DNA of 54,179 nt from a virus, in the IMG/VR virus record IMGVR_UViG_3300030102_004502, positions 1-54,179 of that record. One strand, 5' to 3'. Below the pieces are notes generated by a model. The model did not search any database. It saw only the letters and a list, made by a program, of their open reading frames with translations, and had not been told where the DNA came from. Below are positions 31,803 through 50,305 of the stretch, piece by piece; position 1 is the first letter of the stretch, and every line of letters starts with the position of its first letter. Both the position numbers and the translations under genes were made by a program.

Positions 31803-31831
31803 ATTATAACAAAATGTTACGGGTATGTCAA
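31803..31831 (-). promoter_or_regulatory. Consensus sigma70 promoter of psbA, TTGACA-N17-TATAAT
   Basis: TTGACA (31826-31831) and TATAAT (31803-31808) with a 17-nt spacer, a perfect consensus. The -35 box includes the TGA stop of the upstream glycosyltransferase gene. AATAAATAAC overlapping the -10 is also close to a late-promoter motif, so psbA could be read early and late. Confidence 0.8.
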
Positions 31832-32712
31832 CTCTGTATTGGTAATTTGGGTTGAAGTACATTTCTATCCACAAACTCATTGAAGTTGAAGCGAGCAATG
31901 ATTGGATGCAACCCAGTTATAGGGCGTAAGGCATTGAGTAACTCCTTCTTCTGTCTCCATTGTTGTCTATGTCCATTCTGTGGATGAAGTTTCTTTCTAT
32001 ACTTCTTTCCTCTACTACCAAATAGTATTCCACATGAACCAGGATAATGATTGGTTCTTTTCATATTATTTTCATCAATGTATAATTCCTTTCTTATCCA
32101 TCCATCCTCAATAATATTCAGTTCAGTCTGATTCAACTGTCTTGCTGTGTCAAATGATATCTGATCTCTGTTAGTTCCTATGAGAGAATACTTCCACCAC
32201 AAATCACCGAAGGTATACATGTCCTGATCTAATACTCTCCATATAGATGCTAATACAGGACTACAATACTCCTTGAAGTTATATCCCACGTCCCTTATAG
32301 TTTTTGATATCTCTATCGCCTCATCAAAAGTACACATTGATGGTAAGAAACTTTCAAGTATTTCCTCATAGTAATTGAACTTCTCACAGTGTCTCATGAT
32401 AGTGAACCTATGCTCACTCAGATATTCCTTACACTTTTTGACATACTCAGGTGTCATTACATAGCAACCATCTAACCATACAGTCTTAGTACCATAAGGA
32501 AATACTTTATGAGGATTGATCTTAACATATGCTGACCTTCTCCTATGACATGGGTGATCACATGGTATCTCTCTAAACTCCCAAGGTCCTTTCCTCTTTA
32601 CAGTATTGTCAGTGAACATAACATACTTGATATCAGGATCATAGTAATGCTCATCAGGTATCTCATCATACCCATTGGTTATGCAACTGTATATTACTAT
32701 CCTAGAATCCAT
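31828..32712 (-). CDS. DUF616 (TOD1/MUCI70-like) glycosyltransferase
   Basis: 294 residues. YSCITNGYDEIPDEHYYDPD, KYVMFTDN, KTVWLDGCYVMTPEYV and GTNRDQISFDTAR are the ordered motifs of the DUF616 family, related to plant TOD1 and MUCI70 glycosyltransferases; the Asp in VWLDG is a likely nucleotide-sugar or metal ligand. The end, NGHRQQWRQKKELLNALRPI, is shared with the C domain of the 525-residue paralogue. The donor is unknown. It is the last gene of the glycan cluster before psbA. Confidence 0.75.
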   Translation of the reverse strand: MDSRIVIYSCITNGYDEIPDEHYYDPDIKYVMFTDNTVKRKGPWEFREIPCDHPCHRRRSAYVKINPHKVFPYGTKTVWLDGCYVMTPEYVKKCKEYLSEHRFTIMRHCEKFNYYEEILESFLPSMCTFDEAIEISKTIRDVGYNFKEYCSPVLASIWRVLDQDMYTFGDLWWKYSLIGTNRDQISFDTARQLNQTELNIIEDGWIRKELYIDENNMKRTNHYPGSCGILFGSRGKKYRKKLHPQNGHRQQWRQKKELLNALRPITGLHPIIARFNFNEFVDRNVLQPKLPIQS

Positions 32713-33553
32713 TCACTATCACTAACTTAGGGTCATTCTTTTCCCAATAACCTGTCCTATCTCCAAACAACCAGTCTCCTGTCTCCTTCATAATAGCAGC
32801 ACGGTATCTCATCCTCATGCTGAGTCCTGTAATCTTTGCTAGTTGCTCCACTGTATCAGTAGGATCAATTCTTTTACCACCATATCTACCACCTTTATTC
32901 TTCCACCATTTACCATCAACAGGGTTAGCATCAGACCACCAACCAACACAATGTCTACACTCATCCCAACCATACTCCACTCCTGATGTCTGTAGTGCTA
33001 CAGATAAAGATACTTGATCTCTCTTACCACCTCTCATGTACCACTTCCACCACACCATGTTAGGCATCCATGCTTCAGAGTTCCTCCACAATACTGTACC
33101 TAATGGTGAGAAAAATTTAGAGAAGTCGAACTCAGTCTCTTGTTTTACTTCTCTTGTAAAGTTTATAATGTCAAATGGTTCCATGAATCCTCTATGAATA
33201 TACTCAGCACACTCCTCAAGATAGTAATACTTATGTGGATGCTGCATCAAGAAGAAGTTATGGTCATTCAATATATTCTCACTCAACTCAAAGAAATTTA
33301 CAGAGGTATGTCTTGCAGATATAACAGTATGAAGTTTAGATGCATCAATATAAACACTTTTACCTTCTATAGGACACAATATTTTTGGATGACGTGACAT
33401 TCTGACAGGATCATCATGAGAATATTGTATCTCTCTTAGTTCCCAACCTTCTTGCTCTTCTACAGTGCCATCATGGTAACATATAAAATGTTCACCTGAT
33501 TTATTAGGTGGTAGTTCATGGTATGCGTTGGTGATTGCTGTATAATACTTCAT
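32702..33553 (-). CDS. DUF616-type glycosyltransferase, second copy
   Basis: 283 residues. Same order of motifs, more diverged: YYTAITNAYHELPPNKSGEH, FICYHDGTVEEQEGW, KSVYIDASKLHTV and GGKRDQVSLSVALQ. It keeps the Asp after the VYI/VWL strand and the RDQ motif. It is a paralogue of the flanking genes and overlaps both (11 and 4 nt), consistent with tandem duplication followed by divergence in specificity. Confidence 0.7.
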   Translation of the reverse strand: MKYYTAITNAYHELPPNKSGEHFICYHDGTVEEQEGWELREIQYSHDDPVRMSRHPKILCPIEGKSVYIDASKLHTVISARHTSVNFFELSENILNDHNFFLMQHPHKYYYLEECAEYIHRGFMEPFDIINFTREVKQETEFDFSKFFSPLGTVLWRNSEAWMPNMVWWKWYMRGGKRDQVSLSVALQTSGVEYGWDECRHCVGWWSDANPVDGKWWKNKGGRYGGKRIDPTDTVEQLAKITGLSMRMRYRAAIMKETGDWLFGDRTGYWEKNDPKLVIVNGF

Positions 33554-35127
33554 ATAATATTGAAATACTTCATGTAAAAATCATGGTGTTTATATTTTAA
33601 ATATAACTTAGGAATTAGTCCAGTAATTTCATAGAGTTTAGATAGTAATTGATCAACCCTTTGGTATTGTTTTTTATCTCCATGTTGTGGATGCTTTCCT
33701 CTTCTTCCTATCTTATTATAAAAACCTAATTTGATACCACTTGCATTTCTGTCATCATAAAATAATGGATCAATTCCAGTGTCTTGTATGGCAGCATCAA
33801 AAGGTATATTGTCACGATTTATTTTCTCTCCCCAATAATACCATCTCTCATTGAATATCTTAATATCATCCGTAAGTTTTCTCCAAACAATAGTACATTG
33901 AGGACTAGAATATTTCTTAAAATCATAACCATGTTCTTTCAAGTCCTCAAGGAGATTAATCAAAGTATGTTCTGAGAAAAAAGCACAGGTATAACCCTCT
34001 AATATCTCATCGTATAATGAAAATTTACCACCATGTCTTAGCACAGAGAATGGGAATGATTTCATACTATTGGTAATGAAATCTTCAGTCAATACAAAAC
34101 ATCCATCAATCCATACTGTGTAAGAATTATCTGGAAAAAATTCATGAGCATTTGCTTTTACATAGAATGCAAAATCTCTGGGATCTTTTATATCTAAATC
34201 TAATTCTACATATATCCATGGTTTTACTGTAGTATCAATAGTGCCATCATGGAAACAGACATACTTTACATTAGGATCGTAGTATGATTCCTTAGGGAAT
34301 ACATCATACTTATCAGTAATACATGTGAATACTATTAGTTCTGTATCAATATCAATCCCAAATTCAAACGGTAATGTATCTGTTGCAGATTTTATAATGA
34401 TACTACTTATATCTTTGAAGTTAAAAATTTCATTCAACTCTGTCTGTAAATCTACAATAGATCTATTAGTTGGTTTGTCTATACAAAATGAATGATTGTA
34501 TGGTTTGATTCTATTTGGTTTTGATAGATCCACCATGGGTGTAGGATTTCTATCTGCCTTGACTACAAGATACTCTGCCATTGAACTAGAGACTTGATCT
34601 CTATTCACTCCACCCATATACCATTCTCTCCATACCTTACCCCATTCAATAACCTCTGGTGTAAGTCTCCTCCATATCACACAGTTTATAGTTTGATCGT
34701 AGTCTTTAGGATCATATCCTCTACTCTGCATGAGACGTGCCATGTCTATGATCTCATCTTTGGTAGAGAATCCATAAGCATGTAGTTTATTAAACTCAGC
34801 AGTCAATGATCTCTTATCAGGATGTGTTGGTAACATAAAGTCACCTTCATATTCTTTAGAGAACTCTACAAGTTCTTGTGTGATATTATATGCAGCGTCA
34901 ACCCATACAACATACTCACCCTCATCAAAATATAAATGAGGACAATGTTTAGGATGATATGATCTTCTGACTGGACACTCTTCTTCTACATCTATCTTGA
35001 TATATTTCCATAGTGGTTTAGTAGTCTCTATAGTACCATCATGGAAACAAATATACTGACAATCTTTATCGTAATATACGTCAGGAACTGTATCATAACC
35101 ATTCGTAATGCACGTATAGAATATCAT
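33550..35127 (-). CDS. Two-domain DUF616 glycosyltransferase
   Basis: 525 residues with two copies of the domain. Domain 1 (about 1-250): YTCITNGYDTVPDVYYDKD, YVVWVDAAYNIT, GVNRDQVSSSMAEY. Domain 2 (about 265-525): FTCITDKYDVFPKESYYDPN, YTVWIDGCFVLT, INRDNIPFDAAIQ. Each retains the Asp and RD-Q/N motifs, so both may be active, allowing addition of two sugars or a processive role. Together with the next two genes it makes four tandem domains. Confidence 0.75.
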   Translation of the reverse strand: MIFYTCITNGYDTVPDVYYDKDCQYICFHDGTIETTKPLWKYIKIDVEEECPVRRSYHPKHCPHLYFDEGEYVVWVDAAYNITQELVEFSKEYEGDFMLPTHPDKRSLTAEFNKLHAYGFSTKDEIIDMARLMQSRGYDPKDYDQTINCVIWRRLTPEVIEWGKVWREWYMGGVNRDQVSSSMAEYLVVKADRNPTPMVDLSKPNRIKPYNHSFCIDKPTNRSIVDLQTELNEIFNFKDISSIIIKSATDTLPFEFGIDIDTELIVFTCITDKYDVFPKESYYDPNVKYVCFHDGTIDTTVKPWIYVELDLDIKDPRDFAFYVKANAHEFFPDNSYTVWIDGCFVLTEDFITNSMKSFPFSVLRHGGKFSLYDEILEGYTCAFFSEHTLINLLEDLKEHGYDFKKYSSPQCTIVWRKLTDDIKIFNERWYYWGEKINRDNIPFDAAIQDTGIDPLFYDDRNASGIKLGFYNKIGRRGKHPQHGDKKQYQRVDQLLSKLYEITGLIPKLYLKYKHHDFYMKYFNII

Positions 35128-35888
35128 TTTTGCTGTGCTGCTTGACTCAGTGTCTTCTCTGTTACGTTACCAGGTTCTCTAATGAACCAACCTGTTGCAA
35201 TATACTTTGACTTTTCACCTGTTAGAAATGCACCACGATGCATGTGAGTATATGCTGCTGGCCACAATACTACTGTACCTTTCTTTGGTTGGAAGGATAT
35301 CTCTTGATGATAGAAGTCTGTTGCTCCACCATTCTCATATGGAATATCATTTAGATATATCATCCATGTTAGAACTCTATCTCTATACAAGAAGTTACCA
35401 TTCTCACAATGCCATACATGATAACCACCACCAGGATCAGTACGTTGTAACTTACATGTCCATGATGATACAGGGTCACTTGCATCTACAAGACCTGAGT
35501 ACTTCTTGACATACATTTCAAATGCCATACCTACAGACTGGTTGACTTGCATAGTCATAGTCTGATCACATATCTCTAGGTATAGTTGATGATCCTTTCT
35601 ACCCATTCCACCCTGTGGAAACTGAGTCTTACCATCATTGAAATGATCCAATGTAAATGTATCGTCACCCATCTTAGTCACATCATGTGTTGATGGTATG
35701 TTCTTGAAATATTTTTTCGTGTACCAGAACTCAAAAAGATCTACAAGTGAGTCACAAAATTCTGGTTTGACAAAGTTCTCAAAGACACCTATGGCACCAT
35801 AGTCTTTCATCTCTGTGAATACTGGTTGTGGTACCTTGATAATAGGATCGTACTCGTCACTCTCAAGTGGTGTAATAGATGTGTTCAT
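35124..35888 (-). CDS. 2OG-Fe(II) oxygenase, prolyl 4-hydroxylase-like
   Basis: 254 residues. GGGYHVWHCENG (H160, E162), TWMIYLNDIPYENGGATDFY, TVVLWPAAYTHMHRGAFL (H215/H217) and SKYIATGWF (K228, 2-oxoglutarate) are the P4H-type core; the usual HxD is HxE here. The family hydroxylates Pro or Lys in proteins, or small molecules. It is coupled by a 4-nt overlap to a GT25 gene, the family that glycosylates hydroxylysine in collagen, suggesting hydroxylation then glycosylation of a virion protein. That link is inference. Confidence 0.78.
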   Translation of the reverse strand: MNTSITPLESDEYDPIIKVPQPVFTEMKDYGAIGVFENFVKPEFCDSLVDLFEFWYTKKYFKNIPSTHDVTKMGDDTFTLDHFNDGKTQFPQGGMGRKDHQLYLEICDQTMTMQVNQSVGMAFEMYVKKYSGLVDASDPVSSWTCKLQRTDPGGGYHVWHCENGNFLYRDRVLTWMIYLNDIPYENGGATDFYHQEISFQPKKGTVVLWPAAYTHMHRGAFLTGEKSKYIATGWFIREPGNVTEKTLSQAAQQK

Positions 35889-36685
35889 TGTTCTTTCAAT
35901 TGATTTAGGTATACTGATGGCGGAACTCTACCAACGTACTCATCAAGTTCCATGATTTGATCAATGGTATGATCCACTGCTTGGTATTCCCAGAACTCCT
36001 TTAATGCATTATTGCTTCCTTTGTGAAAAATGTCAAGGTGTTCTTCATGTATGTTAGAACCCAAGTCCATCCTGTAATTGAACAAGGGTGTAGCATATGT
36101 CTTACCACTATCTAATATTAGGTCTTCGGAGACTGCTCTTGGTCTGATGTTTTGATCGATCTTCCACTGCGTTCCTCTTTGGTGTAGACGGATGCACTTA
36201 GTTGCATGATGACGAGTAATAAGGTAGCAAGCAGCAGAAAAGTCATTGATAAACCTATGATGTAGTTTTAAAGTTATCCCATTAGGATTTATAATAGTAA
36301 GTTGAAGACAATCAAAGTTTATGGGCAGTCTCTTACGAACTTCCTTCCAATTGAAAGTCCAACTAGATGCAGTAGATAAATCTGCATCATCTTCCATGAT
36401 GATAACCTCATCTAAATCTGTCTCTTCTACAAAATATTTGAGGGCACTTAAGTGTGACATAACACAAGCACACTCACCCGTATTCATTTGATCAGGAACT
36501 GTTCCTTTTAGGTACTCTTCAAACTCCTCACCATCTATACCTGAGATACGATGATGATCTTTTATTCCCCAATAGGATAGATGATCTTCCATATACTTCC
36601 TTCTCTCTGTGCAGCGATCAAGATTGATCCACAACACTTTAGGAAAACCATCTAATTTTTTTATCGATTTATTTTTGTCGGGCAT
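35885..36685 (-). CDS. Glycosyltransferase family 25
   Basis: 266 residues. VLWINLDRCTERRKYMEDHL near residue 18, ECACVMSHLSALKYF and VIIMEDDADLS (EDD at 98-100, metal and donor binding) are the GT25 signature. GT25 includes LPS galactosyltransferases and collagen beta-galactosyltransferase. Acceptor unknown; see the adjacent hydroxylase. It overlaps the upstream GT by 17 nt. Confidence 0.85.
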   Translation of the reverse strand: MPDKNKSIKKLDGFPKVLWINLDRCTERRKYMEDHLSYWGIKDHHRISGIDGEEFEEYLKGTVPDQMNTGECACVMSHLSALKYFVEETDLDEVIIMEDDADLSTASSWTFNWKEVRKRLPINFDCLQLTIINPNGITLKLHHRFINDFSAACYLITRHHATKCIRLHQRGTQWKIDQNIRPRAVSEDLILDSGKTYATPLFNYRMDLGSNIHEEHLDIFHKGSNNALKEFWEYQAVDHTIDQIMELDEYVGRVPPSVYLNQLKEQ

Positions 36686-37577
36686 TTAAGTAATCAGGGT
36701 TAGCATAATATTCTTCAAGTTGTTTGCGAGTCATCTTACTCAACTTCTGCCACAGTTCCCTGTTACTTTCTATGTGTGGGTTATTGAACCATGAATTAGG
36801 TGTCCTACCATGCTCCATATGGAACACATGATCATTCAATCTCAATACCTTAGAACAAGTATTGAATCTATGATAGCGTTCGTCATCTTCATAACCATAT
36901 GCTACAAACCCTTCGTTCTCTGCACCTAGTCTACGGTATTCTTTCGTGTCGAAGAATTGACAGAAACCAAACTTGGCATCATATAAGTTTGCCTTTCCTT
37001 GGAACGCTCCGAAATTGAAATTAGAATTAATGAAACGAGTAACATCTTCATCATTTATAAACAACTGGTATTGGAATTCACCTATTCCATAAGGGTATAC
37101 ACATTTTATATCTTCACCATTGTAACCTTTGAGTATTGTATTCTGTGCAAGTATGTAACTGTTTAGTGGGAGTAGTATATCTGCATCATAGTTACATACA
37201 ACAGGTGTCTCAACCAACTCCAACATATCATTGAGTAGTTTGGTACGATGAAATATTACATCGTCTGTCTCCTCAAATATGTGGTGTATATTATGCATCT
37301 TGATAGGAGGTACTACCTCATCAAGCATAGGAACAACTTGCTTTAGGAATACAGATTCCTTATCATGTTCTTTTATTATTATTTGAGTGTCAAAATTCTT
37401 TAGAAGATATACCAATGAGGTAGTTATATTTCTAATTCTATCTGCTGTCTCACACCTAAGAGGTATGATAAATGTAGTGCTTGTTAGATCCCACGAATTT
37501 ATAGGTTGAATTTGTAGGTCTTCGTACATACCAAGATCAGGAATCTCTACTCCCTCTTGTACGATTTTATCTGCCAT
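36669..37577 (-). CDS. GT-A glycosyltransferase (GT2/GT7-like)
   Basis: 302 residues. TTFIIPLRCETADRIRNI at the start is a GT2-type nucleotide-binding strand; VVCNYDADILLP supplies the DxD; GAFQGKANLYDAKFGFCQFF and EGFVAYGYEDDERYHRF resemble the GT7 C-terminal acceptor-site motif (W/YGxEDDE). Predicted to transfer a hexose or N-acetylhexosamine. No membrane segment, so cytoplasmic. Confidence 0.75.
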   Translation of the reverse strand: MADKIVQEGVEIPDLGMYEDLQIQPINSWDLTSTTFIIPLRCETADRIRNITTSLVYLLKNFDTQIIIKEHDKESVFLKQVVPMLDEVVPPIKMHNIHHIFEETDDVIFHRTKLLNDMLELVETPVVCNYDADILLPLNSYILAQNTILKGYNGEDIKCVYPYGIGEFQYQLFINDEDVTRFINSNFNFGAFQGKANLYDAKFGFCQFFDTKEYRRLGAENEGFVAYGYEDDERYHRFNTCSKVLRLNDHVFHMEHGRTPNSWFNNPHIESNRELWQKLSKMTRKQLEEYYANPDYLNARQK

Positions 37578-38365
37578 TACTTTAATACCTCCCAGTTGCT
37601 ACAGTATAGATCAGATGTAATATGATTCTTAGTATACCCTATTCCGAACCATTTGTCAGGTGCTATTATCCTTTTGTTAGGATTCTTACTCAACCATGAT
37701 CCCCACCAACTGAATGATGAGTTAGCGATAATAAAATCAGAACACAGACTCATCATGCACAGGTCTGCAAGATTGTCTCCACCTTCTGAGATAAGGAACC
37801 TATCATCAGGGAACTCAGTGCCACACCATTCAGGATCGTCAGAAAAAATAATAACATTACGTTTAGCATCAAACTTTGATAGGGCAGCGTCATAGTATTC
37901 CTTTGGACATGGTGGATGATTATCACAGTTCTGTATATAGTCACCTCTGCGAACGTGTAATGCAATAGGATCACTCACTGTTGAAATCATGTCCTCACAT
38001 GGTACTCTGATTTCATTCTTGAACTCAAAGTCCTCACGTATATCATCTTCTATATGCTCAAAGTATTTTGTACTCTGTAAGTATGCATATACATTATGAT
38101 TGTCAGGCATATTGTTGAACAAGTTTGCATCATAATGGAAGTGTGCTTCTCCTACGTAGGTGCCAGGACACATTCCTATGTTAGTCAAACCTTTTAGTTT
38201 GAATGCCTCAAAGAGTTGATGGTCTGTCCACTCGTCTTTAAAGTCACTATCTGGAATCATAAAATCAAAACCACGATGTGCTGCTATGCCTCGTAGTCCT
38301 GCATACTGGAACATTTGATTACCCAGTCTGCCATGTCTTCCTAAATGGTTGAATCCTATAGTCAT
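37577..38365 (-). CDS. GT11 alpha-1,2-fucosyltransferase family protein
   Basis: 262 residues. HGRLGNQMFQYAGLRGIA (12-22), ALHVRRGDY near 128 and FIIANSSFSWWGSWLS with KRIIAPDKWF are the GT11 motifs, HxRRxDY binding GDP-fucose. GDP-sugar supply in the cluster (epimerase at 44166) fits this donor class. Start and stop overlap the neighbours by 1-4 nt. Confidence 0.85.
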   Translation of the reverse strand: MTIGFNHLGRHGRLGNQMFQYAGLRGIAAHRGFDFMIPDSDFKDEWTDHQLFEAFKLKGLTNIGMCPGTYVGEAHFHYDANLFNNMPDNHNVYAYLQSTKYFEHIEDDIREDFEFKNEIRVPCEDMISTVSDPIALHVRRGDYIQNCDNHPPCPKEYYDAALSKFDAKRNVIIFSDDPEWCGTEFPDDRFLISEGGDNLADLCMMSLCSDFIIANSSFSWWGSWLSKNPNKRIIAPDKWFGIGYTKNHITSDLYCSNWEVLK

Positions 38366-39048
38366 GATGAATGTTTTTCTTTCAAGTATTCAATCTCTTT
38401 TGGTAAGAGATCTTCGTATTGTCTTTGTGTTTGATTGGGGTGTTCTCTATTAGAGATGTGATAAGTTTTTATCACTGCTGGTTGTCCATGATCTCTGTAC
38501 AGTCTATAGTACATGTCACAGTCCATCAACATAACAAGTTCCTCATCAAAATACTCTTCAATACCTTTTCTCAGTGCGAGAATAGATGGTGAACTAAGAG
38601 TATTTACCCCTTCTAATAAACGGTCATTCCAGACAGGCACCTTTGGATTGTAATGTGTCTGTCCATTATCTAGGGTGTGAGCAAACCCTGTAACCGCCCA
38701 GTCAACATTCAATTTGAATGCCTTATGTAAATCTTCTGTGAGGGTTTTGGTTAGTATGAAATCATCAGAGAAGAGAACCTTTAGTATGTCACCATCTGCG
38801 TGACGAAGAGCATGATTAGTGTTAGCAGAAATGTTCCCGTAATTAGTCTTATTTCTAACATAGTTTATGTGAAATAGATCAGAGTATTCTTTACAAGCGT
38901 TTAGAACTTTATCTGTCTTTCCATGATCGGAAATCCACACGTTGAAGTCCTTGTCAGTTTGTTCTGACAGAGCATAGAAAATATCAAACAAGTAGGATTG
39001 ACATTTTGGATTGCTATCATGGGTCGGTATACAATAACTGACCGTCAT
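38362..39048 (-). CDS. GT2 glycosyltransferase
   Basis: 228 residues. TVSYCIPTHDSNPKCQSYLF, VWISDHGKTDK and GDILKVLFSDDF (DD as the metal-binding pair) form a short GT2/GT-A fold; the terminal part is helical and charged. Sugar unknown. Coupled at both ends by 4-nt overlaps. Confidence 0.78.
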   Translation of the reverse strand: MTVSYCIPTHDSNPKCQSYLFDIFYALSEQTDKDFNVWISDHGKTDKVLNACKEYSDLFHINYVRNKTNYGNISANTNHALRHADGDILKVLFSDDFILTKTLTEDLHKAFKLNVDWAVTGFAHTLDNGQTHYNPKVPVWNDRLLEGVNTLSSPSILALRKGIEEYFDEELVMLMDCDMYYRLYRDHGQPAVIKTYHISNREHPNQTQRQYEDLLPKEIEYLKEKHSS

Positions 39049-42241: not shown

Positions 42242-42780
42242 GGGTAATAATTTATATTGAGGGTGAATCTAGTAGTCTTAGATGGTGAAGAACTTGAGTG
42301 ATACTGTGACCCTTCAAAGACTACAACCTTCCCTCTTTCAGGTGCTTCTCTATGTATAATGTTTTGATCAGAGTCAAAAAAGAATGTGTCACCGTCTGCT
42401 TTATTAGGATAATATAGTGCCACAATATGTTTTCTATCAGGTTGATCTATATGTGAGTTATGAGGTACACCAAAGACATCAGGTCTAGGGTATTGTAATG
42501 TCATGTGTGCTCTCATCATTTTATTATTAGGCATACCTATTGCTTCACCGATTGGAATCCATGGGAACTTACGGAAGTGTTCTGACTTCTCTCCTTCTTC
42601 GTTCAATAATGTATGACTGAAGTACGGATGCATATCAGTCTTTAGATCATGCTCAAAATTACCATAAGCACAATCATCAAAGTAATAGTATGGTAACTTC
42701 TTACACAGAATCTCTATGAGTTTCTGATGTGTGAGTTTAAGTTTGTGCCTTGTAATCGAAAAGGAATTGTCGTTGCTCAT
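42238..42780 (-). CDS. 2OG-Fe(II) oxygenase
   Basis: 180 residues. VPHNSHIDQPDRKHIVALYY (H110, D112), VVVFEGSQYHSSSSP (H161) and TTRFTLNINYY (R171) give HxD...H...R. DGDTFFFDSDQNII lies between. A P4H-like small hydroxylase; substrate could be an enzyme product of the glycan cluster or a virion protein. Confidence 0.75.
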   Translation of the reverse strand: MSNDNSFSITRHKLKLTHQKLIEILCKKLPYYYFDDCAYGNFEHDLKTDMHPYFSHTLLNEEGEKSEHFRKFPWIPIGEAIGMPNNKMMRAHMTLQYPRPDVFGVPHNSHIDQPDRKHIVALYYPNKADGDTFFFDSDQNIIHREAPERGKVVVFEGSQYHSSSSPSKTTRFTLNINYYP

Positions 42781-43516
42781 CAGAGTTAGTCCATTCTCCT
42801 ATACCTATGTAATCAGGTAGTTCCATAAGGTTGATCCTGACATCAGTATTATAGAACATCTTATAATTTAGGTGCTCTGTAATATGGAGGTCAGTACAAT
42901 ATAATTCTTCTATCTTTCTACTACACAATGCAGCAGCAGTACCAAATGTTCCTACACCTGATGTTGCTACATGTTTTGCATTCATCAAAGTAGCAAAGTC
43001 TTCTTCAACACTCTTGGATTGTACCTTTACTTTAGGACATTGATTCCTCAACTCCTCTATCAATGGATTGTAATCGTCTGGTTCTGTTACTACTATGACC
43101 TTTTCAAAGGCTTCAAGCAAAGTAAAATAAAAAACATAGGGATTAGGAACATATTGATTAGGGTTAGTGACGTTCTTGTCAAAAACATCTCCACTGCGAA
43201 GATGGATGACAAGAGTGTCATCAGGAACATCAACACTGGGGAGTGCCAACTGAGGGTATATAAACTCCTTACAAAACGCTCGTATCTGTGTGTAGACCAA
43301 CGAAGAATCAATCGTAACCTCTTTGTACGGTCCTTGATAATAGAAAAATTTGGACTGATGGTCACTACGACCATCCCCAAATTTAACCGAAAATTGTTTG
43401 ATGACATCATGTGGTATTGATTCAAATGTTGTTTTGTATGCTTGTGCCATCATCAAACCAACAGCACATTGTTGTATGTTATTACCTAGTCTACCATACC
43501 AATGAGAAATTTTCAT
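42737..43516 (-). CDS. GT11-like glycosyltransferase, diverged
   Basis: Start chosen at 43516 (259 residues), where ATG overlaps the upstream stop as ATATGA. WYGRLGNNIQQCAVGLMMAQ resembles the GT11 GRLGNQMFQ motif; VIHLRSGDVF resembles HxRRGD; a GVGTFGTAAALCS segment replaces NSSFSWW. A fucosyltransferase-fold enzyme with altered donor or acceptor binding. It overlaps the oxygenase by 44 nt. Confidence 0.7.
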   Translation of the reverse strand: MKISHWYGRLGNNIQQCAVGLMMAQAYKTTFESIPHDVIKQFSVKFGDGRSDHQSKFFYYQGPYKEVTIDSSLVYTQIRAFCKEFIYPQLALPSVDVPDDTLVIHLRSGDVFDKNVTNPNQYVPNPYVFYFTLLEAFEKVIVVTEPDDYNPLIEELRNQCPKVKVQSKSVEEDFATLMNAKHVATSGVGTFGTAAALCSRKIEELYCTDLHITEHLNYKMFYNTDVRINLMELPDYIGIGEWTNSDEQRQFLFDYKAQT

Positions 43517-44169
43517 ATGAAAATGTTTCTTGCTTCGGAACCCATACATTCAAATGGTTTGTATGTTTCCTCTTTGACTACGTATGGATCAATCCACCAG
43601 TCTTCGTATGGATTTGATCCGTTACATACACTTGAACATACTAACACATATCCTTTTTCTGTCAAGTATTTTCTTGACGCATCCATGATACCAAAACCAT
43701 CTTTGTATGCATCATGTTCAAAGGTTATAACACTACATCTGTACTCATCTAATGGAAACTTTTTGAGTACATCAAATGTTATGTTGGGTGGTTCACAATC
43801 AAGAGAAAGGTAATCTATTCTACCTTGCCACTTCTCTTTCTTGATTGCTGTCTCATAATCAAACACTGTACCATCTGCTTCATAACAATGGTTCTGTCTT
43901 GCCATGTCTCCATTGAAAACTTCACACATTGATTTCTCTATTTCAATAGAGAATCCTCTCCAACCAAACACAGTCTCTAATAAGAATGTGTTACTCATAC
44001 TTTGAGGATGGTTTGCACCAACCTCAACGTACTTACCATTCTTCTTACCCTTCAGCATAGAGAGAACAAACAAATCCTGATATGCTTGAGAGTAATTTTC
44101 AAATACTTTAGTGTGTCCACTGAAAGGATGCTTTAGAGTATCCTTTTCATAATTATAGGTTGTATTCAT
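43513..44169 (-). CDS. FkbM-family methyltransferase
   Basis: 218 residues. YSQAYQDLFVLSMLKGKKNG, KYVEVGANHPQSMSNTFLLE (SAM-binding motif I), GWRGFSIEIEKSM and IDYLSLDCEPPN are FkbM-type. Members O-methylate sugars or lipids. In this cluster it probably methylates a glycan hydroxyl. Confidence 0.8.
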   Translation of the reverse strand: MNTTYNYEKDTLKHPFSGHTKVFENYSQAYQDLFVLSMLKGKKNGKYVEVGANHPQSMSNTFLLETVFGWRGFSIEIEKSMCEVFNGDMARQNHCYEADGTVFDYETAIKKEKWQGRIDYLSLDCEPPNITFDVLKKFPLDEYRCSVITFEHDAYKDGFGIMDASRKYLTEKGYVLVCSSVCNGSNPYEDWWIDPYVVKEETYKPFECMGSEARNIFI

Positions 44170-45299
44170 TTGTTACAGTTACCATAAGACAAATACTTCT
44201 TACCAGTTATATCACGTTCTGCATCAACAGGGAACATATCCTTAGTAATCTGTGACATGATCCAGTTGTATGTCTTACTCATTCCCTCTTCAAGTGTTGT
44301 ACTATAATCCCAACCTAACTTCTCTCTGATAAGATCGTTGTTAGAGTTTCTACCTCTTACACCTGTGTGTGGCACGTCAATATGATCTTTACCAATTTCT
44401 TTCTTGGCAACTTTAGCAGCAGTATCTACTAACTGATCAATGGTTACCATCTCTTCTGACCCTATGTTTATGGGAGCAGTCCACGTTCCTTCCATGAGTC
44501 TACGTGTTGCTTCAATACATTCATCGATGAAGAGGAAGCTTCGTGTTTGAAGTCCATCTCCCCATACTTCAATGGAGTCTCCATCTGAGGCGTATGCGAC
44601 CTTTCTACAGATAGCTGCGGGAGCTTTTTCTCTTCCACCGTACCAAGTTCCTTCTGGTCCGTAGATGTTATGATACCTCGCAATCCTAACATCGAAATTA
44701 TGATTACGACTGTAAGCGAGATATAACCTCTCGCTGAATAATTTTTCCCATCCATATTCAGAATCAGGTGCAGCAGGGTAAGCGGAATCCTCACGACAAT
44801 CAGGATTATCTGGATCAAGTTGGTTGTACTCAGGGTACATACAGGCAGAACTTGAATAGAATATTTTAGTTTTACCCACTATGTCAGGTACGGGTTGTAA
44901 AAGACGTGGGTAACTTTCATTCATCTCCTTTTGACATGATAGAAGATTAATATTAATAAGAGCAGAGTTATGCATCAAGTCAGCATCATGCTCACCAGTA
45001 AAGATATATCCTGCACCACCCATGTCAGCAGCAAATTGATATATCTCATCAAATGGTTCCTCATACTGAAAAGGAACACTAGCATAGAAGTTTCCACTCT
45101 CTCCTCTAAAGTGAATGACTCTTCTCATGAAGTCTCTATCTGTGAGATCTCCTGTTACAAACTCATTGGCAGCAGTATCAGAAAAGTCAGGGTGCTTGAG
45201 GTCAACACCTCTTACCCAATAACCTTCGCTAATCAATCTTTTGACCATATGTGAACCGATGAACCCACCGGCACCGAGCACTAATGCTGTCTTCTTCAT
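44166..45299 (-). CDS. GDP-mannose 3,5-epimerase-like protein
   Basis: Start at 45299 (377 residues) because ATG overlaps the upstream stop and is directly before KKTALVLGAGGFIGSHM (NAD-binding GxxGxxG). AADMGGAGYIFTGEHDADL, YSSSACMYPEYNQL (catalytic C153), EYGWEKL (Y182, K186) and RYHNIYGPEGTWYGGREKAP are the hallmarks of plant-type GDP-D-mannose 3',5'-epimerase, which makes GDP-L-galactose. ATRRLMEGTWTAPINIGSEEM completes the match. It would give an L-sugar donor for the GT10/GT11 enzymes. Confidence 0.82.
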   Translation of the reverse strand: MKKTALVLGAGGFIGSHMVKRLISEGYWVRGVDLKHPDFSDTAANEFVTGDLTDRDFMRRVIHFRGESGNFYASVPFQYEEPFDEIYQFAADMGGAGYIFTGEHDADLMHNSALININLLSCQKEMNESYPRLLQPVPDIVGKTKIFYSSSACMYPEYNQLDPDNPDCREDSAYPAAPDSEYGWEKLFSERLYLAYSRNHNFDVRIARYHNIYGPEGTWYGGREKAPAAICRKVAYASDGDSIEVWGDGLQTRSFLFIDECIEATRRLMEGTWTAPINIGSEEMVTIDQLVDTAAKVAKKEIGKDHIDVPHTGVRGRNSNNDLIREKLGWDYSTTLEEGMSKTYNWIMSQITKDMFPVDAERDITGKKYLSYGNCNK

Positions 45300-46600
45300 T
45301 TGTTTTCTTTGATATATTTTATTATAACATGATCTATGTAGTCTAGCATGTCCATCGTAATAACTGGTGAACATCCTATAAAGAACACGTTGTCTAGAAC
45401 TTCTGAAGCTCTGGGATAGTTTGATGCAGGTTCGATATGCCTATAAGCAGGATGCATAAGAATATTACCAGCAAAATAATTCCTCGTTTGGATTCCATGA
45501 TCTTCTAGATACTTTACAAGGTGGTGTTTACCGTCCTTATATATTATCGGAACTCCAAACCAAGAGGTCTCAGCATGTTCTTTCTCTTCAACAACCCTGC
45601 AACCAGGAATTTGGTTGAAGACTTGAGTGAGTGCTCCTTTATTCATACGACGGACACAATGTATCTCTGTCTGCTTCTCCAACTGCACAAGTCCAATAGA
45701 CCCTTGCAGATCGGCAGGCTTGAGGTTGTATCCTTGGACGCCAAAGACATACTTATGATCGACATCCTTGTCGTACCCTTCCAACCAACGATCAAATCTC
45801 TTTCCACAGACACCGTTGGGCAATTTATTTTGGGCACCTACACAGTAACATCCACGACCCCACCAAGCAAACGATCTGGCGATCTGAACTATCTCCTCGA
45901 TGTCAGAGGAGATCATTCCACCTTCAATCGTGCAGATATGATGTGCTGGATAGAAAGAACAAGACGCTGCGACGGCTTTTTTAGTCAGCAACTCACCTCT
46001 CCACTTGCTACCCAAGGAGTCACAGTTGTCAGCGATGTAATGCAATCTGTTCCTATCAAGAATCTTAAAAAACTTATCGAAGTCATAGGGATTACCAAGA
46101 ACAGGTGAAGAGAAAACAGCAACAGTTCTAGGTGTAAGTTTATCTTCTATCTGTTGTAGGTTCCAGTTCAAATCTTCCATGTCTATGTCTACAAAGACAG
46201 GTTTCAATCCATTCTGAATGATAGGATTGATAGTAGTAGGAAAACCACATGCACATACTATAATTTCATCTCCATCATGCCAATCAAAATATTTTTTCAA
46301 CGCAGCAATCATCACTAGGTTAGCAGACGAACCACTGTTTACCATCACAGAGTGCTTGAAGTCAAACTTCTTAGAGAATGCACGTTCAAACTTGTTGACA
46401 TTCTCTCCTGCTGGCAACCACTTACCACCTAGTAATGTTGTAATAGCAGCAGTAACTTCTCTATTGTCCCAGTAAGGACCTGAGTAATAAATGGGATCGC
46501 CTGGTTTCCAATTCTTGTTTGGAAGATAAGGCATGATATCATATCCACCTTTCTCAAGACTGAATATGAAGTTGTCGACCTGTTCTCCTAGGTTATACAT
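45296..46600 (-). CDS. E1-type PLP/iron-sulphur 3-dehydrase (RfbH/DdhC-like)
   Basis: 434 residues of the DegT aminotransferase fold. SFYPAHHICTIEGGM has His (H220) where aminotransferases have the PLP-binding Lys, and RGCYCVG...VCGKRF with C193 (DNCDSLG) gives a four-cysteine set like the cluster site of CDP-6-deoxy-hexulose 3-dehydrase. Such enzymes remove the C3 hydroxyl on the way to 3,6-dideoxy sugars and need an electron donor. No dedicated reductase gene is seen here; host ferredoxin could serve. It lies beside a sugar 4,6-dehydratase. Confidence 0.85.
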   Translation of the reverse strand: MYNLGEQVDNFIFSLEKGGYDIMPYLPNKNWKPGDPIYYSGPYWDNREVTAAITTLLGGKWLPAGENVNKFERAFSKKFDFKHSVMVNSGSSANLVMIAALKKYFDWHDGDEIIVCACGFPTTINPIIQNGLKPVFVDIDMEDLNWNLQQIEDKLTPRTVAVFSSPVLGNPYDFDKFFKILDRNRLHYIADNCDSLGSKWRGELLTKKAVAASCSFYPAHHICTIEGGMISSDIEEIVQIARSFAWWGRGCYCVGAQNKLPNGVCGKRFDRWLEGYDKDVDHKYVFGVQGYNLKPADLQGSIGLVQLEKQTEIHCVRRMNKGALTQVFNQIPGCRVVEEKEHAETSWFGVPIIYKDGKHHLVKYLEDHGIQTRNYFAGNILMHPAYRHIEPASNYPRASEVLDNVFFIGCSPVITMDMLDYIDHVIIKYIKENK

Positions 46601-47406
46601 AAATCCTTTACTATGAATTCGTTTGTTATATGTTGAGCAAAACCTAACTTCCTCAACTTAGATGTATCTAACCAGAAGTGTTGTGTCTGCACGTTGTTAT
46701 GGAACTCTGGTGGATCAATGTTTATAATCTCACCACGAGATCTTGTGAAGTGTTTAGCGAGTTCTACAATCTCACTAACCTTAGTGGGTTGTCCTGACCC
46801 TATGTTGTAGATTTCATTCAACTCACCCTTGTCCATAACAAGTTTCATTGCTCTACATACATCCTTGACATGCATTATATCACGACAATGAGATCCATTA
46901 TCATATACTTTGATATCACGATCTTGTTTCAATTCATTTACCATCCATTGGATAGCATTCTTTTTCCTACTGGCATTAGTATCTCCCTCACCCATGACAT
47001 TGCATAGTCTCAGGATTCTATACTTCATCCCTGTCGTTTGAGCGAAAGAAATGATAAGATCTTCTGCACACTTTTTGGTAATAGAATAAAATCCTGTTGG
47101 TTTGCAATCCGATACCTCTGTGGCGGGAAGTGCTCCCCCTTTGCCATAGACAAACCATGAGGAAACGAAATTGAATGTGATGTCTTCTGATCTACAGAAG
47201 TCGAGTGTTTCACAAAGGACTCGAAGATTTGTTTCGACATCCAAAGTGATCTTATCATGTACATTGTAATTGTGGGTGGTAGAGATCATGTACAGGATTT
47301 CATTGTGCCTTGGCACTCTATCATCTCTCTCCTGTACTTCAACTTGTTCCTTGTATAGGTTTTTGAAATGCTTACCTATGAAACCGTGACCGTAAAGTGA
47401 AATCAT
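46588..47406 (-). CDS. NAD-dependent epimerase/dehydratase
   Basis: 272 residues. Short glycine motif (MISLYGHGFIGKHF), FVSSWFVYGKG (catalytic Ser/Thr region), YSITKKCAED (Y and K of YxxxK) and YNIGSGQPTKVSEIV are short-chain dehydrogenase features. Probably the reductase or epimerase step after the dehydratase and E1 enzyme. Exact reaction unknown. Confidence 0.75.
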   Translation of the reverse strand: MISLYGHGFIGKHFKNLYKEQVEVQERDDRVPRHNEILYMISTTHNYNVHDKITLDVETNLRVLCETLDFCRSEDITFNFVSSWFVYGKGGALPATEVSDCKPTGFYSITKKCAEDLIISFAQTTGMKYRILRLCNVMGEGDTNASRKKNAIQWMVNELKQDRDIKVYDNGSHCRDIMHVKDVCRAMKLVMDKGELNEIYNIGSGQPTKVSEIVELAKHFTRSRGEIINIDPPEFHNNVQTQHFWLDTSKLRKLGFAQHITNEFIVKDLCIT

Positions 47407-48347
47407 ACTAACTTTTCAAGATACCATGTGATAGTAGCACGAATACCTACTTCAAAATCTGTAGTAGGTCTCCATCCTGTGCGTTGTGTAATCTTACTAT
47501 GATCCATTCCATATCGTTTGTCAATACCAGGTCTTTCATTGCTGATACCAATCAGATCATGTGGTTTCTTCAGCATATCTAATATCATTATAGTAACATC
47601 TATATTTCTCTTCTCACATGAACCACCTACGTTGAAGTGATCGTTGATTATATTCTTCTCTTCCAGTTTCCATATTGCAGAACAATGATCGTAAACATAT
47701 AACCAATCTCTTACTTGATGTCCACCTTGATGCATATATGTAATCTTATTTCTAAACGCATTGTATATAACTTTAGGTATCAACTTCTCTACATGTTGAT
47801 GAGGACCATAGTTGTTAGAGCAGTTAGTAATAAGATAAGGTAGACCATAAGTGTTATGCCACGTCTTGACAAAATGGTCAGACGCTGCTTTGCTTGCTGA
47901 GTACGGATTTCTAGGGTCATATGGTGTTGTCTCCTTGAATAATACCTTGTCATAATATTCTAAAGAACCATACACTTCATCAGTAGATATGTGATGGAAC
48001 TTCTCTACGTTATGTCTTAGACTGGCATTCAATAAATTGATTGTACCAATTACATTTGCTTCTAAGAAAGGTCTGTAATTAGTTATACTATTATCAACAT
48101 GTGACTCAGCAGCAAAGTGAAATACTTTCTTGATCTTATACTTGTCAAAGATATAATTTACATTCTCCTCCTGTGATATGTCACAGTACTCAAATACAAA
48201 CTGATCATTGAGTGGCATGTATTGTTTGTCAGCAGCATAAGATAGGTTGTCAATGATGATAACCTGATCATCTACACCAGTATATTTTTTGAGATAGTGT
48301 AGGAAGTTACTGCCAATAAATCCTGCACCACCTGTAACTAGGAACAT
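47403..48347 (-). CDS. rmlB: dTDP-glucose 4,6-dehydratase
   Basis: 314 residues. VTGGAGFIGSNFLHYL (NAD site), FHFAAESHVDNSI, HISTDEVYGSLE (catalytic Thr-Asp-Glu), NPYSASKAASDHFV (YxxxK) and NCSNNYGPHQHVEKLIPKVI are full RmlB motifs. It converts dTDP-glucose to dTDP-4-keto-6-deoxyglucose. No RmlA is present in the window, so the nucleotide sugar must come from the host. Confidence 0.92.
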   Translation of the reverse strand: MFLVTGGAGFIGSNFLHYLKKYTGVDDQVIIIDNLSYAADKQYMPLNDQFVFEYCDISQEENVNYIFDKYKIKKVFHFAAESHVDNSITNYRPFLEANVIGTINLLNASLRHNVEKFHHISTDEVYGSLEYYDKVLFKETTPYDPRNPYSASKAASDHFVKTWHNTYGLPYLITNCSNNYGPHQHVEKLIPKVIYNAFRNKITYMHQGGHQVRDWLYVYDHCSAIWKLEEKNIINDHFNVGGSCEKRNIDVTIMILDMLKKPHDLIGISNERPGIDKRYGMDHSKITQRTGWRPTTDFEVGIRATITWYLEKLV

Positions 48348-48577
48348 AAGTCTATAAGTTTATCAATGTATGCTTTTGCCTTCTTCAAATCTTGGACTTT
48401 ATCGTCCTTGTGTCCTGCACGACAGACATACTTCACTACATTACCAGCGAAGAAATCAAGTCCTTGATCTGCTATGAAATCCCAAACTTGTATATTACCA
48501 CGTTGGTAATGTGCAGGGTCTTCTGGAGAGAAAGCACTTGAAGCAGTGATGGGAAATTTTAAATCATCTTGATTCAT
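48338..48577 (-). CDS. DUF3310 protein
   Basis: Start chosen at 48577 (79 residues), overlapping the cupin stop as TAATG; an in-frame ATG at 48592 lies inside the cupin gene. HYQRGNIQVWDFIADQGLDF and VVKYVCRAGHKDD with KKAKAYIDKLI match DUF3310, related to the T7 gp1.7 nucleotide-kinase region. It is out of place functionally in a sugar cluster and may serve nucleotide metabolism. Confidence 0.8.
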   Translation of the reverse strand: MNQDDLKFPITASSAFSPEDPAHYQRGNIQVWDFIADQGLDFFAGNVVKYVCRAGHKDDKVQDLKKAKAYIDKLIDLCS

Positions 48578-48939
48578 TAGTAGTGACCCCATGCAAAATG
48601 ATCTACACGATTATAATCATCTTGTAGTCTTACAATATCATCTTCCTGACAGTCACCTCTTTGTACTTCTATAATTCTTATTCCCTTTTTACCACCCTGT
48701 ATACGATGTCGTTGTTCTATTTGTATAAAAAATGTATCACCAACTTTACATGGTGTCTCAAGATTACCTTGAGTTATTACACCATCACCTTCTACAACAA
48801 CCCAGTCCTCAGTGCGATACCGATGGAATTGTAGAGAGATCCTCATCTCTGGTTCTATGAAGAGTTCTTTGACACAATAATTGTCACCTCTTTGTAAGAC
48901 AGTGAAGTAACCCCATGGTCTTCTTTCTTTTTCAATCAT
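48577..48939 (-). CDS. Cupin, mannose-6-phosphate isomerase type II-like
   Basis: 120 residues. RRPWGYFTVLQRGDNYCVKE, LQFHRYRTEDWVVVEG and GDTFFIQIEQRHRI (metal His residues) match the C-terminal isomerase domain of bifunctional AlgA/ManC enzymes, here free-standing. It would convert fructose-6-phosphate to mannose-6-phosphate and feed GDP-mannose to the epimerase at 44166. Confidence 0.82.
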   Translation of the reverse strand: MIEKERRPWGYFTVLQRGDNYCVKELFIEPEMRISLQFHRYRTEDWVVVEGDGVITQGNLETPCKVGDTFFIQIEQRHRIQGGKKGIRIIEVQRGDCQEDDIVRLQDDYNRVDHFAWGHY

Positions 48940-49166
48940 CCAATAAACCCCGTATTCAATAGATCATACTCTAAGTTCTCCATAATAACATCGTAATCTC
49001 TATCTTTATCATTGTAAAAATAAATGTCTTGTGACTGATAGAAAGACTTTAGAGAATCATAAAGATTAGGATGATCATACTCTAAGTCTATCTTATTTTC
49101 AACAGCAGATACAAGTAGTTGAGATTTGTTTTTGAATCTCGAAAGAAAAGATCCCTTCTTCGACAT
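48936..49166 (-). CDS. Unknown small protein, first gene after a promoter
   Basis: I prefer the ATG at 49166 (76 residues, MSKKGSFLSRFKNKSQLL): the promoter at 49189-49218 would start transcription near 49182, downstream of the ATGs at 49202 and 49187. The protein is acidic in its second half (DKDRDYDVIMENLEYDLLN) with no recognised domain. It leads the sugar-nucleotide operon. Confidence 0.55.
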   Translation of the reverse strand: MSKKGSFLSRFKNKSQLLVSAVENKIDLEYDHPNLYDSLKSFYQSQDIYFYNDKDRDYDVIMENLEYDLLNTGFIG

Positions 49167-49188
49167 TGTTTTTTGAACTAACGACATA

Positions 49189-49218
49189 ATTATACTGTTC
49201 ATTCACCTCAGTTGTCAA
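49189..49218 (-). promoter_or_regulatory. Consensus sigma70 promoter TTGACA-N18-TATAAT
   Basis: TTGACA (49213-49218) in the last codons of the 177-residue oxygenase gene and TATAAT (49189-49194), both perfect, spacer 18 nt. Starts the operon that reads through the cupin, sugar-nucleotide and glycosyltransferase genes. Confidence 0.72.
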
Positions 49219-49741
49219 GGAAGTAATCATACTCATTTAGAGTCATTACATTGACGTTGATTGCTATCCGATATTCCTTTGTTTTTGATGGCAAAGGTGA
49301 GTGATAGTATGTAGCAGGGAAGATAAGGAGTTCACCTTCCACTGGTTTATGTATATACTCTTCTCCACCCAATAAAAACATGATGTCACCTGACTGTGGT
49401 GGTTTCCGTAGGTAGAAGACAGTAGATATATCTTTCTTTACTTTCTCAGGCATGTGGTTGTGCATAAAACTCACAGTCCTATCCTGATTAGATACGTACG
49501 CCCAACTCTTATTGAATATTCTATCTGGTATATCTGCCTTAGGATATAGTGTTATAACTTCTTGTTTTATTATATCAAATAGGGGTTGAAAGAATCCTAG
49601 ATTATTAGGTGCTATATCAAATACATACTCACCTCTCTTATAGTTTTTACTACTCCATTTATGTTGTAGTATAAGTTTATTGCAGAGCAGTTCTACATCA
49701 TCTGCCCAATCAAGACCAATATGTTTAGAGTGAAGATGCAT
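49208..49741 (-). CDS. 2OG-Fe(II) oxygenase
   Basis: 177 residues. VSFMHNHMPEKVKKDISTVF (H94, H96), LIFPATYYHSPLPS (H147) and EYRIAINVNV (R158) mark a small phage 2OG oxygenase. YLRKPPQSGDIMFLLG is the typical central strand pair. It is next to another oxygenase upstream; substrate unknown. Confidence 0.75.
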   Translation of the reverse strand: MHLHSKHIGLDWADDVELLCNKLILQHKWSSKNYKRGEYVFDIAPNNLGFFQPLFDIIKQEVITLYPKADIPDRIFNKSWAYVSNQDRTVSFMHNHMPEKVKKDISTVFYLRKPPQSGDIMFLLGGEEYIHKPVEGELLIFPATYYHSPLPSKTKEYRIAINVNVMTLNEYDYFLDN

Positions 49742-50305
49742 TTAATCGTAATGTCCTTCTGGTGGTACAGGTGCTGATGGTTGACCTCGATTCAACTCTT
49801 CATTAGGGTATGCACAGAATATCTGCACAGACAATCTCAATCCTGCTCCCTCATTTACCATGATAGGGGTGACAGCATGATCTTCTCCATACTCATTTAT
49901 CATGAGCATATTTCTTTGAGGATGCATGCACTTCAATTCTTCAGTATCTTTTTCTCTCCACATGAATACACCACCCTTTTCTGGTACCCAATCATTCAAA
50001 TATAATGTAGCACCGTAGATGTTCATGTTGTCATCATGCCAGTTGATACCAGAACCTGGTAACCACAAATGATAGTTTATATTTGTAGGTACTCTGTCAA
50101 AGTATTGTGTGAGTTGATTCCTAAGATCATTGAATTGATATACCTCAGGTCTAGAAGAGAAACAAAATTGTTTGAAACCTTTAGTTAGTGGAGCATTCCA
50201 TTTCCATTTGGATATACCCCAAACATCTTGCGTCTTCTTCTTTTGTATTTCATCGAGACATCTATCGATGAGTTCATCTGATACTGCGTTATGAATGATT
50301 CGCAT
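49742..50305 (-). CDS. 2OG-Fe(II) oxygenase
   Basis: 187 residues. GSGINWHDDNMNIYGATLYL (H90, D91/D92), EYGEDHAVTPIMVNEGAGLR (H143, R157) and LSVQIFCAYPNEE define the core; GGVFMWREKD lies between. It is less like the previous oxygenase than its position suggests, so the two are not a recent duplication. It overlaps talC by 17 nt. Confidence 0.75.
   Translation of the reverse strand: MRIIHNAVSDELIDRCLDEIQKKKTQDVWGISKWKWNAPLTKGFKQFCFSSRPEVYQFNDLRNQLTQYFDRVPTNINYHLWLPGSGINWHDDNMNIYGATLYLNDWVPEKGGVFMWREKDTEELKCMHPQRNMLMINEYGEDHAVTPIMVNEGAGLRLSVQIFCAYPNEELNRGQPSAPVPPEGHYD

Follow-up and report, generated by a model that had tools for sequence, protein, structure and literature searches.

The window considered here is the whole of IMG/VR record IMGVR_UViG_3300030102_004502, a stretch of 54,179 bases, and it holds a dense run of sugar-related genes between the transaldolase gene talC and psbA. 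The window also carries genes for a gp32-type single-strand binding protein, a PhoH-like protein and thymidylate synthase, as well as T4-type tube, baseplate and hub genes, and its closest DNA in the phage collection comes from the AG-345-D19 contigs, amplified from single cells, and from T4-like cyanophages. Judged by its sequence, it is a fragment of the genome of an uncultured T4-like marine cyanophage, whose hosts are marine photosynthetic bacteria. The genome type (psbA, talC, gp32-type protein, baseplate) and the presence of nucleotide-sugar enzymes and several glycosyltransferases (GT) in a single run place the locus among the sugar clusters of this phage group. The talC to psbA interval comprises 24 genes, all on the minus strand. 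A sequence-only reading had described it as a coupled, phage-encoded glycan pathway with hydroxylases interleaved among the transferases: the open reading frames (ORFs) that it listed are all present on that strand, and the coupling is borne out, as the 23 junctions among the 24 genes span −79 to +5 nt. The features are as follows, from the talC side to the psbA side.

49742..50305, minus: 2-oxoglutarate (2OG) oxygenase belonging to the talC unit, ahead of the operon promoter; above the Pfam cut-off
49208..49741, minus: 2OG oxygenase belonging to the talC unit, ahead of the operon promoter; above the Pfam cut-off
49189..49218, minus: sigma-70 promoter, operon start; 12/12 consensus, 18-nt spacer
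48936..49166, minus: small protein, phrog_552, function unassigned; start probably at 49166, since the ORF itself begins at 49202, ahead of the −10 box
48577..48939, minus: mannose-6-phosphate-isomerase-type cupin; PF01050, E 2e-23
48338..48592, minus: DUF3310; E 1e-16
47403..48347, minus: dTDP-glucose 4,6-dehydratase (RmlB); TIGR01181 374.5 bits, cut-off 365.1; PDB 1g1a, 1e-81
46588..47406, minus: short-chain sugar-nucleotide reductase or epimerase, N-terminus shortened; PF01370, 6e-30
45296..46600, minus: pyridoxal-phosphate 3-dehydratase, RfbH/ColD-like; PDB 3bcx, 5e-67; RfbH model 346.8 bits, below the cut-off of 423
44166..45374, minus: predicted GDP-mannose 3',5'-epimerase (GME); PDB 2c59, 4e-77, residues 29–380 of 402
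43513..44169, minus: FkbM-type methyltransferase (weak); 7 of 20 relatives match PF05050, 43513 itself does not
42737..43549, minus: second GT11-type, GT11-like transferase (weak); 1 of 16 relatives matches PF01531, 42737 itself does not; HxRxGD motif by eye
42238..42780, minus: 2OG oxygenase, prolyl-hydroxylase-like fold; PF13640 25.5 bits; Foldseek top ranks P4H (prolyl 4-hydroxylase) and PHD2
41393..42241, minus: GT17; 4e-28
40479..41396, minus: GT47-like (weak); E 0.013, below the cut-off
39830..40495, minus: DUF5672 protein, taken as a transferase; 2.5e-17
39045..39833, minus: GT10; 1.5e-9
38362..39048, minus: GT2; 3.8e-14
37577..38365, minus: GT11; 4e-27
36669..37577, minus: GT7-like (weak), phrog_15655; E 0.0098, below the cut-off
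35885..36685, minus: GT25; 1.8e-11; profile also matches mimivirus R655 and COLGALT1
35124..35888, minus: 2OG oxygenase, P4H-like; 5e-12; profile matches P4H chains only
33550..35127, minus: two-domain DUF616/TOD1_MUCI70 transferase; 21.8 bits, cut-off 21.4
32702..33553, minus: DUF616-type transferase (diverged); recognised by likeness to the other copies
31828..32712, minus: DUF616-type transferase, phrog_26101; E 5e-4, 19.9 bits, below the cut-off
31803..31831, minus: sigma-70 promoter ahead of psbA, marking the operon end; 12/12, extended −10

A conserved promoter divides this region. The 22 ORFs from 49166 to 31828 overlap at all 21 junctions, a 137-nt gap follows ahead of psbA, and the run is predicted to form one operon of 22 genes under a promoter of host type (sigma-70). 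Seventeen related contigs hold the small gene (present in 16) or the cupin, together with the RfbH-like and GT11-like genes: in 11 of them the promoter is perfect and lies 15–29 nt ahead of the stretch matched to the small gene, in four more it keeps 10 or 11 of the 12 positions at a distance of 40–56 nt, and it was not found at that place in L004, which lacks the small gene, or in L086. As the operon promoter lies downstream of both 49742 and 49208, these oxygenases are assigned to the talC unit, an assignment with which phage P-RSM6 agrees: there, three 2OG genes lie between psbA and talC in an interval that holds no annotated glycosyltransferase. Thus, of the four oxygenases that the sequence-only reading had placed in the glycan cluster, two (35124 and 42238) are inside the operon, whereas the other two lie beyond the promoter. 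The same perfect promoter also stands ahead of the small gene of a sister glycan cluster that lacks the oxygenases (L020, at 9104). The T4-late promoter motif TATAAATA proved uninformative: it occurs seven times in the window, a number reached by 20 of 100 shuffles, and never within 31828–50305.

The cupin and the four sugar-nucleotide enzymes all exceed the Pfam cut-off and point to two kinds of predicted donor, namely GDP-L-galactose or L-gulose derived from GDP-mannose, and a dTDP-linked deoxyhexose. GME relatives at 58–72% identity occur in many cyanophage records (H52–H87), most of which label them UDP-glucose 4-epimerase, nucleotide-sugar epimerase or NAD-dependent epimerase; the copy in S-SCSM1 is annotated as GDP-mannose-3',5'-epimerase (PMC9602691; published sources are cited here from excerpts). 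A manA cis-regulatory RNA (RF01745, 108 bits) is located at 30138–30339 on the minus strand, between psbA and a small ORF at 29418–29702; donors derived from mannose are the predicted output of the operon in this phage.

The transferases are of uneven clarity. GT17, DUF5672, GT10, GT2, GT11 and GT25 exceed their cut-offs, whereas the GT47-like, GT7-like and second GT11-type assignments are weak. The four DUF616 domains previously counted are mutually similar (E 1e-12 to 1e-53), although 31828 falls below the cut-off and 32702 is recognised through likeness to the other copies alone. The number of these domains varies, with four in the window and six in a 192 kb relative (G001), and in two related contigs the DUF616 genes are tandemly amplified at the psbA end (L103, 12424–15800; L107, 12415–15800). 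In a collection of 50,697 phage records the two-domain form occurs once, in an amplicon from a single cell. As for the claimed methyltransferase, 43513 itself gives no FkbM match while seven of its 20 relatives do. The GT25 profile matches mimivirus R655 (8e-9), procollagen galactosyltransferase 1 (about 7e-6) and bacterial GT25 (1e-4). Profile searches of the PDB returned no match for the methyltransferase or DUF616, and nothing better than E 0.06 for the second GT11-type protein. In a simple hydropathy scan, which undercounts (psbA scored 3), all operon proteins were free of membrane segments: the transferases appear soluble, as those of a virion-protein glycosylation system would be. By the same scan, eight of the 230 ORFs of G001 have at least two membrane segments, and the three with at least three cluster at psbA. 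Homology and gene order support the proposal that the phage encodes a coupled route to a glycan, including a methyltransferase and an enzyme for an L-sugar donor.

All four 2OG oxygenases are present, and those at 49742, 49208 and 35124 exceed the Pfam cut-off, whereas 42238 remains slightly below it (25.5 vs 27 bits). The two embedded in the operon appear to resemble prolyl 4-hydroxylases, by profile or by modelled fold. A 23-row profile of 35124 matched six PDB sequences (E up to 0.1), all of them prolyl 4-hydroxylases, and residues H160, E162, H217 and K228, which we take to be candidate iron and 2OG ligands, are invariant in its alignment; the candidate ligand residues are likewise invariant for 42238. 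The AlphaFold model obtained for 35124 has low confidence (pLDDT 64), and the support from its fold matches, of which the viral collagen prolyl hydroxylase of PBCV-1 is nearest (4e-4), is accordingly weak. For 42238 the model is good (pLDDT 85): the top Foldseek ranks are occupied by P. putida P4H and PHD2, and VIA-align gave Z scores of 15.1 for a Burkholderia 2OG oxygenase, 14.3 for PHD2 and 14.0 for AlkB, in a list from which the absence of a family does not exclude likeness to it. A PDB profile search with 42238 found no match. When a cellular source of 35124 was sought in cellular genome contigs, six weak, partial relatives (27–52%) were recovered. A pairing of 2OG oxygenase and transferase is known for DNA in other systems, where a hydroxyl placed on a base is glycosylated. 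As an explanation of the operon this seems very improbable: 35124 is P4H-like by profile, and to our knowledge about twelve transferase genes far exceed what DNA-hypermodification systems use. Two further 2OG genes, 28810 and 14658, lie elsewhere in the window; the latter adjoins an ORF at 14032–14583 (minus; phrog_32420) that looks Asp/Asn beta-hydroxylase-like by eye and is possibly a third, and the two are also neighbours in G001.

The cassette is conserved in order and under selection. The window proteins were used as tblastn queries against 186 loci, and gene order was tabulated for 19 contigs (27 loci): 13 keep the order of the window without exception among the genes that each holds, and six deviate solely in the place of a 38–51% FkbM relative or of DUF616 copies. 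The interleaving of oxygenases with transferases holds for the embedded pair, whose positions are fixed across relatives. In the best 80 of at least 595 loci for 35124 (57–99% identity), GT25 lies directly upstream in 78 of the 78 with room and the two-domain DUF616 gene directly downstream in 77 of 79. For 42238, in the 20 loci (48–100% identity) that make up all those confirmed by the scan, the GT11-like gene is directly upstream in 17 of the 17 with room, and GT17 directly downstream in 19 of 20, the remaining one having GT47. By contrast, GME (80 loci, 68–91%) has many kinds of neighbours. The ratio of non-synonymous to synonymous substitution (dN/dS; Nei–Gojobori, up to four pairs per gene) is at most 0.27 in every computable comparison, within the range of psbA, talC and thyX, with two comparisons saturated; the DUF616 genes are among the fastest-changing. 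Sullivan et al. (2010), who called such clusters lipopolysaccharide (LPS) clusters, left undecided whether they have a function or serve as stuffer DNA in headful packaging (PMC3037559). The dN/dS values argue that the present cluster is not stuffer, and with conserved order and promoter added, selection and synteny already refute this idea, the least probable of those considered here, provided that they hold in a broader sample.

Relatives of 35124 are found in a structural context in other cyanophages. In Syn1, S-RSM4, Sf-CH1b and S-H9-1 the gene lies between tail-fibre or structural genes and the tail assembly chaperone or its relative. With a limit of E 1e-25, 76 phage records contain a relative; 60 of these are considered here, and in 40 of them the next gene downstream is the Syn1-type chaperone, while S-RSM4 (two records), S-H9-1 and ACG-2014h carry a chaperone by annotation. 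P-SSM2/P-SSM5, S-SSM7/S-SSM6a, S-SSM4 and the AG-345-D19 cassette are without this neighbour, the surroundings having been viewed in P-SSM2, S-SSM7 and S-SSM4. In G001, a weak 2OG match (175738–176556; 25.3 vs 27 bits) also lies between tail-fibre and structural-protein matches, a single case in which chance is possible.

The reading that we favour, with a probability of roughly 0.4, places the glycan on a soluble virion protein, most likely of tail-fibre type, with the oxygenases acting on that protein. The operon would supply its own GDP-L-galactose or L-gulose and dTDP-linked deoxyhexose, from which soluble cytoplasmic transferases and the methyltransferase would assemble a branched glycan foreign to the host. 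This glycan would be attached directly to the virion protein, presumably a tail-fibre-type adhesin, after the two embedded P4H-like oxygenases, one adjoining the GT25 step, had hydroxylated the acceptor, and the resulting coat may alter adsorption, stability or recognition of the particle. That a hydroxyl is made on a virion protein and then glycosylated had been suggested from the sequence; the P4H likeness, the GT25 likeness to R655 and COLGALT1, the tail-fibre context and the failure to find three export-related families speak for it, whereas the placing of two of the four hydroxylases in another unit, the P-RSM6 2OG genes without annotated transferase and the sister clusters mostly devoid of 2OG genes weaken it. 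A more elaborate version is unlikely: tail fibres would undergo hydroxylation-primed O-glycosylation in the bacterial cytoplasm, about twelve transferases would build a methylated L-galactose/dideoxyhexose glycan that the host cannot make, and the tandem DUF616 genes would perform a fast-changing outer recognition step.

Several observations weigh against the virion-protein reading. The product glycan, the protein acceptor, its identity as a tail fibre and the precedence of hydroxylation are all deduced from genes alone. For 42238, the AlkB score almost equals that of PHD2, and one cassette contig dispenses with this oxygenase, its GT11-like and GT17 genes overlapping directly. Elsewhere, 10 of 61 GME loci hold any 2OG gene, and some of these GME clusters carry relatives of GT17, GT11-like, FkbM, GT47, DUF5672, GT2 and GT7; the layouts devoid of 2OG genes were found by phmmer with seeds, by which diverged 2OG genes can be missed. 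None of 12 scanned GT25 relatives (43–51% identity; five cut near the gene) has a 2OG gene within 1.5 kb, although in S-SSM7 one lies 0.6 kb past an intervening gene from the GT25 relative, and GT17 relatives adjoin a 2OG gene in 0 of 10 cases below 60% identity, compared with 30 of 32 at or above it. In 16 of the 60 records the 35124 relative is elsewhere or its surroundings lie outside the comparison (S-CAM8, S-SCSM1, S-PRM1), and the chaperone adjacency is one inherited arrangement in many near-identical isolates, many of one species. The cassette oxygenases form a single clade (93/98) whose sister group the tree does not resolve, and the tree does not give a specific tie between cassette and tail-locus oxygenases. 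No collagen-like protein was found among 230 ORFs covering 191 of the 192.35 kb of G001, where the longest Gly-X-X run is 6, a scan outside which the incomplete genome of the window itself lies. Lastly, the early-type promoter suits superinfection exclusion at least equally well.

These data bear on a further possibility, namely that the glycan is made for virion or host but is not primed by the oxygenases, which would be separate additions, for instance acting on host proteins or lowering 2-oxoglutarate. Sister clusters mostly lack 2OG genes, which implies that the transferases generally need no oxygenases and that their coupling is characteristic of this lineage. Moreover, 2OG genes are scattered throughout cyanophage genomes, the P-RSM6 trio stands without annotated transferase, and Sullivan et al. 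(2010) proposed that 2OG oxygenases shift 2-oxoglutarate (the NtcA proposal; PMC3037559). A comparison of 2OG density is partly circular because the definition of the cassette includes 42238; the unbiased evidence is that of layouts without 2OG genes. On the other hand, independent additions would hardly account for neighbours fixed over 57–99% (35124) and 48–100% (42238) identity, for overlapping junctions or for invariant candidate iron and 2OG ligands, and we regard this possibility as unlikely.

Whether the product could instead be exported was approached through three families: Wzx flippase (PF01943) was found in none of 18 phage records (13 of 14 control genomes), and polymerase/ligase PF04932 and initiating sugar-phosphate transferase PF02397 each in none of 22 (10 of 14 control genomes each), the window being covered, for the flippase, by Pfam scans of the cluster genes only. 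These records exclude that of the window and include G008 (the record of L169), most of whose cassette proteins are 93–100% identical; the three families do not cover all routes, and ABC-type export was not searched for. Flippase, polymerase/ligase and initiating transferase are the components expected of a Wzx/Wzy-type O-antigen or capsule locus. In the family to which a Prochlorococcus single-cell genome belongs, 300 genomes were searched: GME is present in one (E up to 1e-60; distant ones uncounted), two-domain DUF616 in none (a search without internal positive control) and GT17 in four (E up to 1e-10); Wzx occurs in 50 and RmlB, under the same limit as GME, in 200. The rarity of GME, DUF616 and GT17 indicates that the L-galactose donor and several transferases are not ordinary host functions, whereas the dehydratase is.

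Remodelling of the host surface ranks close behind the virion-protein reading and is a serious, if tentative, contender. The transferases would work at the cytoplasmic face, extending the lipid A-core or a different lipid carrier of the host, host transport would export the product, and the oxygenases would tailor sugar or lipid, with the effect of blocking adsorption of competing phages or grazers. LPS core assembly requires no phage flippase, and deoxyhexose and GDP-L-galactose enzymes are common in surface polysaccharides. The early-type promoter and the heptose genes of other cyanophage clusters fit this scheme. It is contradicted in part by the three export-related families not found in phage records, though host genes could serve, and by the restriction of Wzx to 50 of 300 genomes of one host family. 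The embedded oxygenases match PF13640 and prolyl hydroxylases, a family that, as we understand it, differs from that of LpxO and KdoO, the hydroxylases of lipid A and Kdo. Remodelling is the published interpretation of such clusters (PMC3037559, PMC9602691), and Wang et al. (2022) read their own as cell-wall modification (PMC9602691).

Several known systems invite comparison. The ‘LPS’ clusters of P-SSM2, S-SSM7, S-SM2, S-SCSM1, Bellamy and P-TIM68 belong to the same phage group and combine epimerases with several transferases, some near talC, hli or psbA; GME is shared with S-SSM7, S-SM2, S-SCSM1, Bellamy and P-TIM68, P-SSM2 likewise has a 2OG gene between transferases, and S-SCSM1 unites GME, cupin isomerase, fucosyltransferases and 2OG genes. 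Unlike them, the cassette has DUF616 transferases, RmlB, RfbH-like genes and two oxygenases in invariant positions, and its order is conserved whereas theirs is hypervariable. With the collagen-type system (mimivirus L230/R655, animal PLOD/COLGALT1) it has in common a 2OG hydroxylase adjoining a GT25 relative, the arrangement seen in all 78 loci mentioned above. It differs in lacking a detected collagen-like protein in the near-complete relative G001, in that 35124 is prolyl- rather than lysyl-hydroxylase-like, and in the remoteness of the GT25 likeness, which is common to bacterial GT25. According to the excerpts of PMC9546862 and PMC9614988, L230 and R655 themselves carried an initial annotation as LPS enzymes, and L230 acts on viral collagen by both hydroxylation and glucosylation. 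Mycobacteriophages and PBCV-1, as described in excerpt, likewise glycosylate virions with virus-encoded transferases, PBCV-1 also through virus-encoded donor pathways as in the cassette, for which a virion glycan is a prediction. Among the matches listed in a literature search, which consisted of titles and abstract openings with few subscription journals, none described glycosylation or hydroxylation of virion proteins in a cyanophage. The signs of selection, the conserved promoter, the invariant oxygenase–transferase neighbours and the rarity among host genomes together indicate a working phage-specific pathway, and the question narrows to whether its glycan sits on the particle or on the cell. 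In the former case, protein glycosylation linked to hydroxylation would be extended to phages.

Other features deserve mention. In G001, three ORFs sharing a KPKFI start (L194, 4732–9189) adjoin structural genes and are possibly sulfotransferase-like by eye; the two that were scanned have no Pfam match above the cut-off. In the window, a Nol/NodU-like carbamoyltransferase (22071–25411, minus) looks split into an N-half (24326–25411) and a C-half (22877–23476), with a DNA-binding-protein ORF (23848–24345) between them and a further N-half-like ORF at 22071–22880. Radical SAM proteins without a clear family assignment are encoded at three places, 18272–19348, 21284–22081 and 26653–27783, again on the minus strand.

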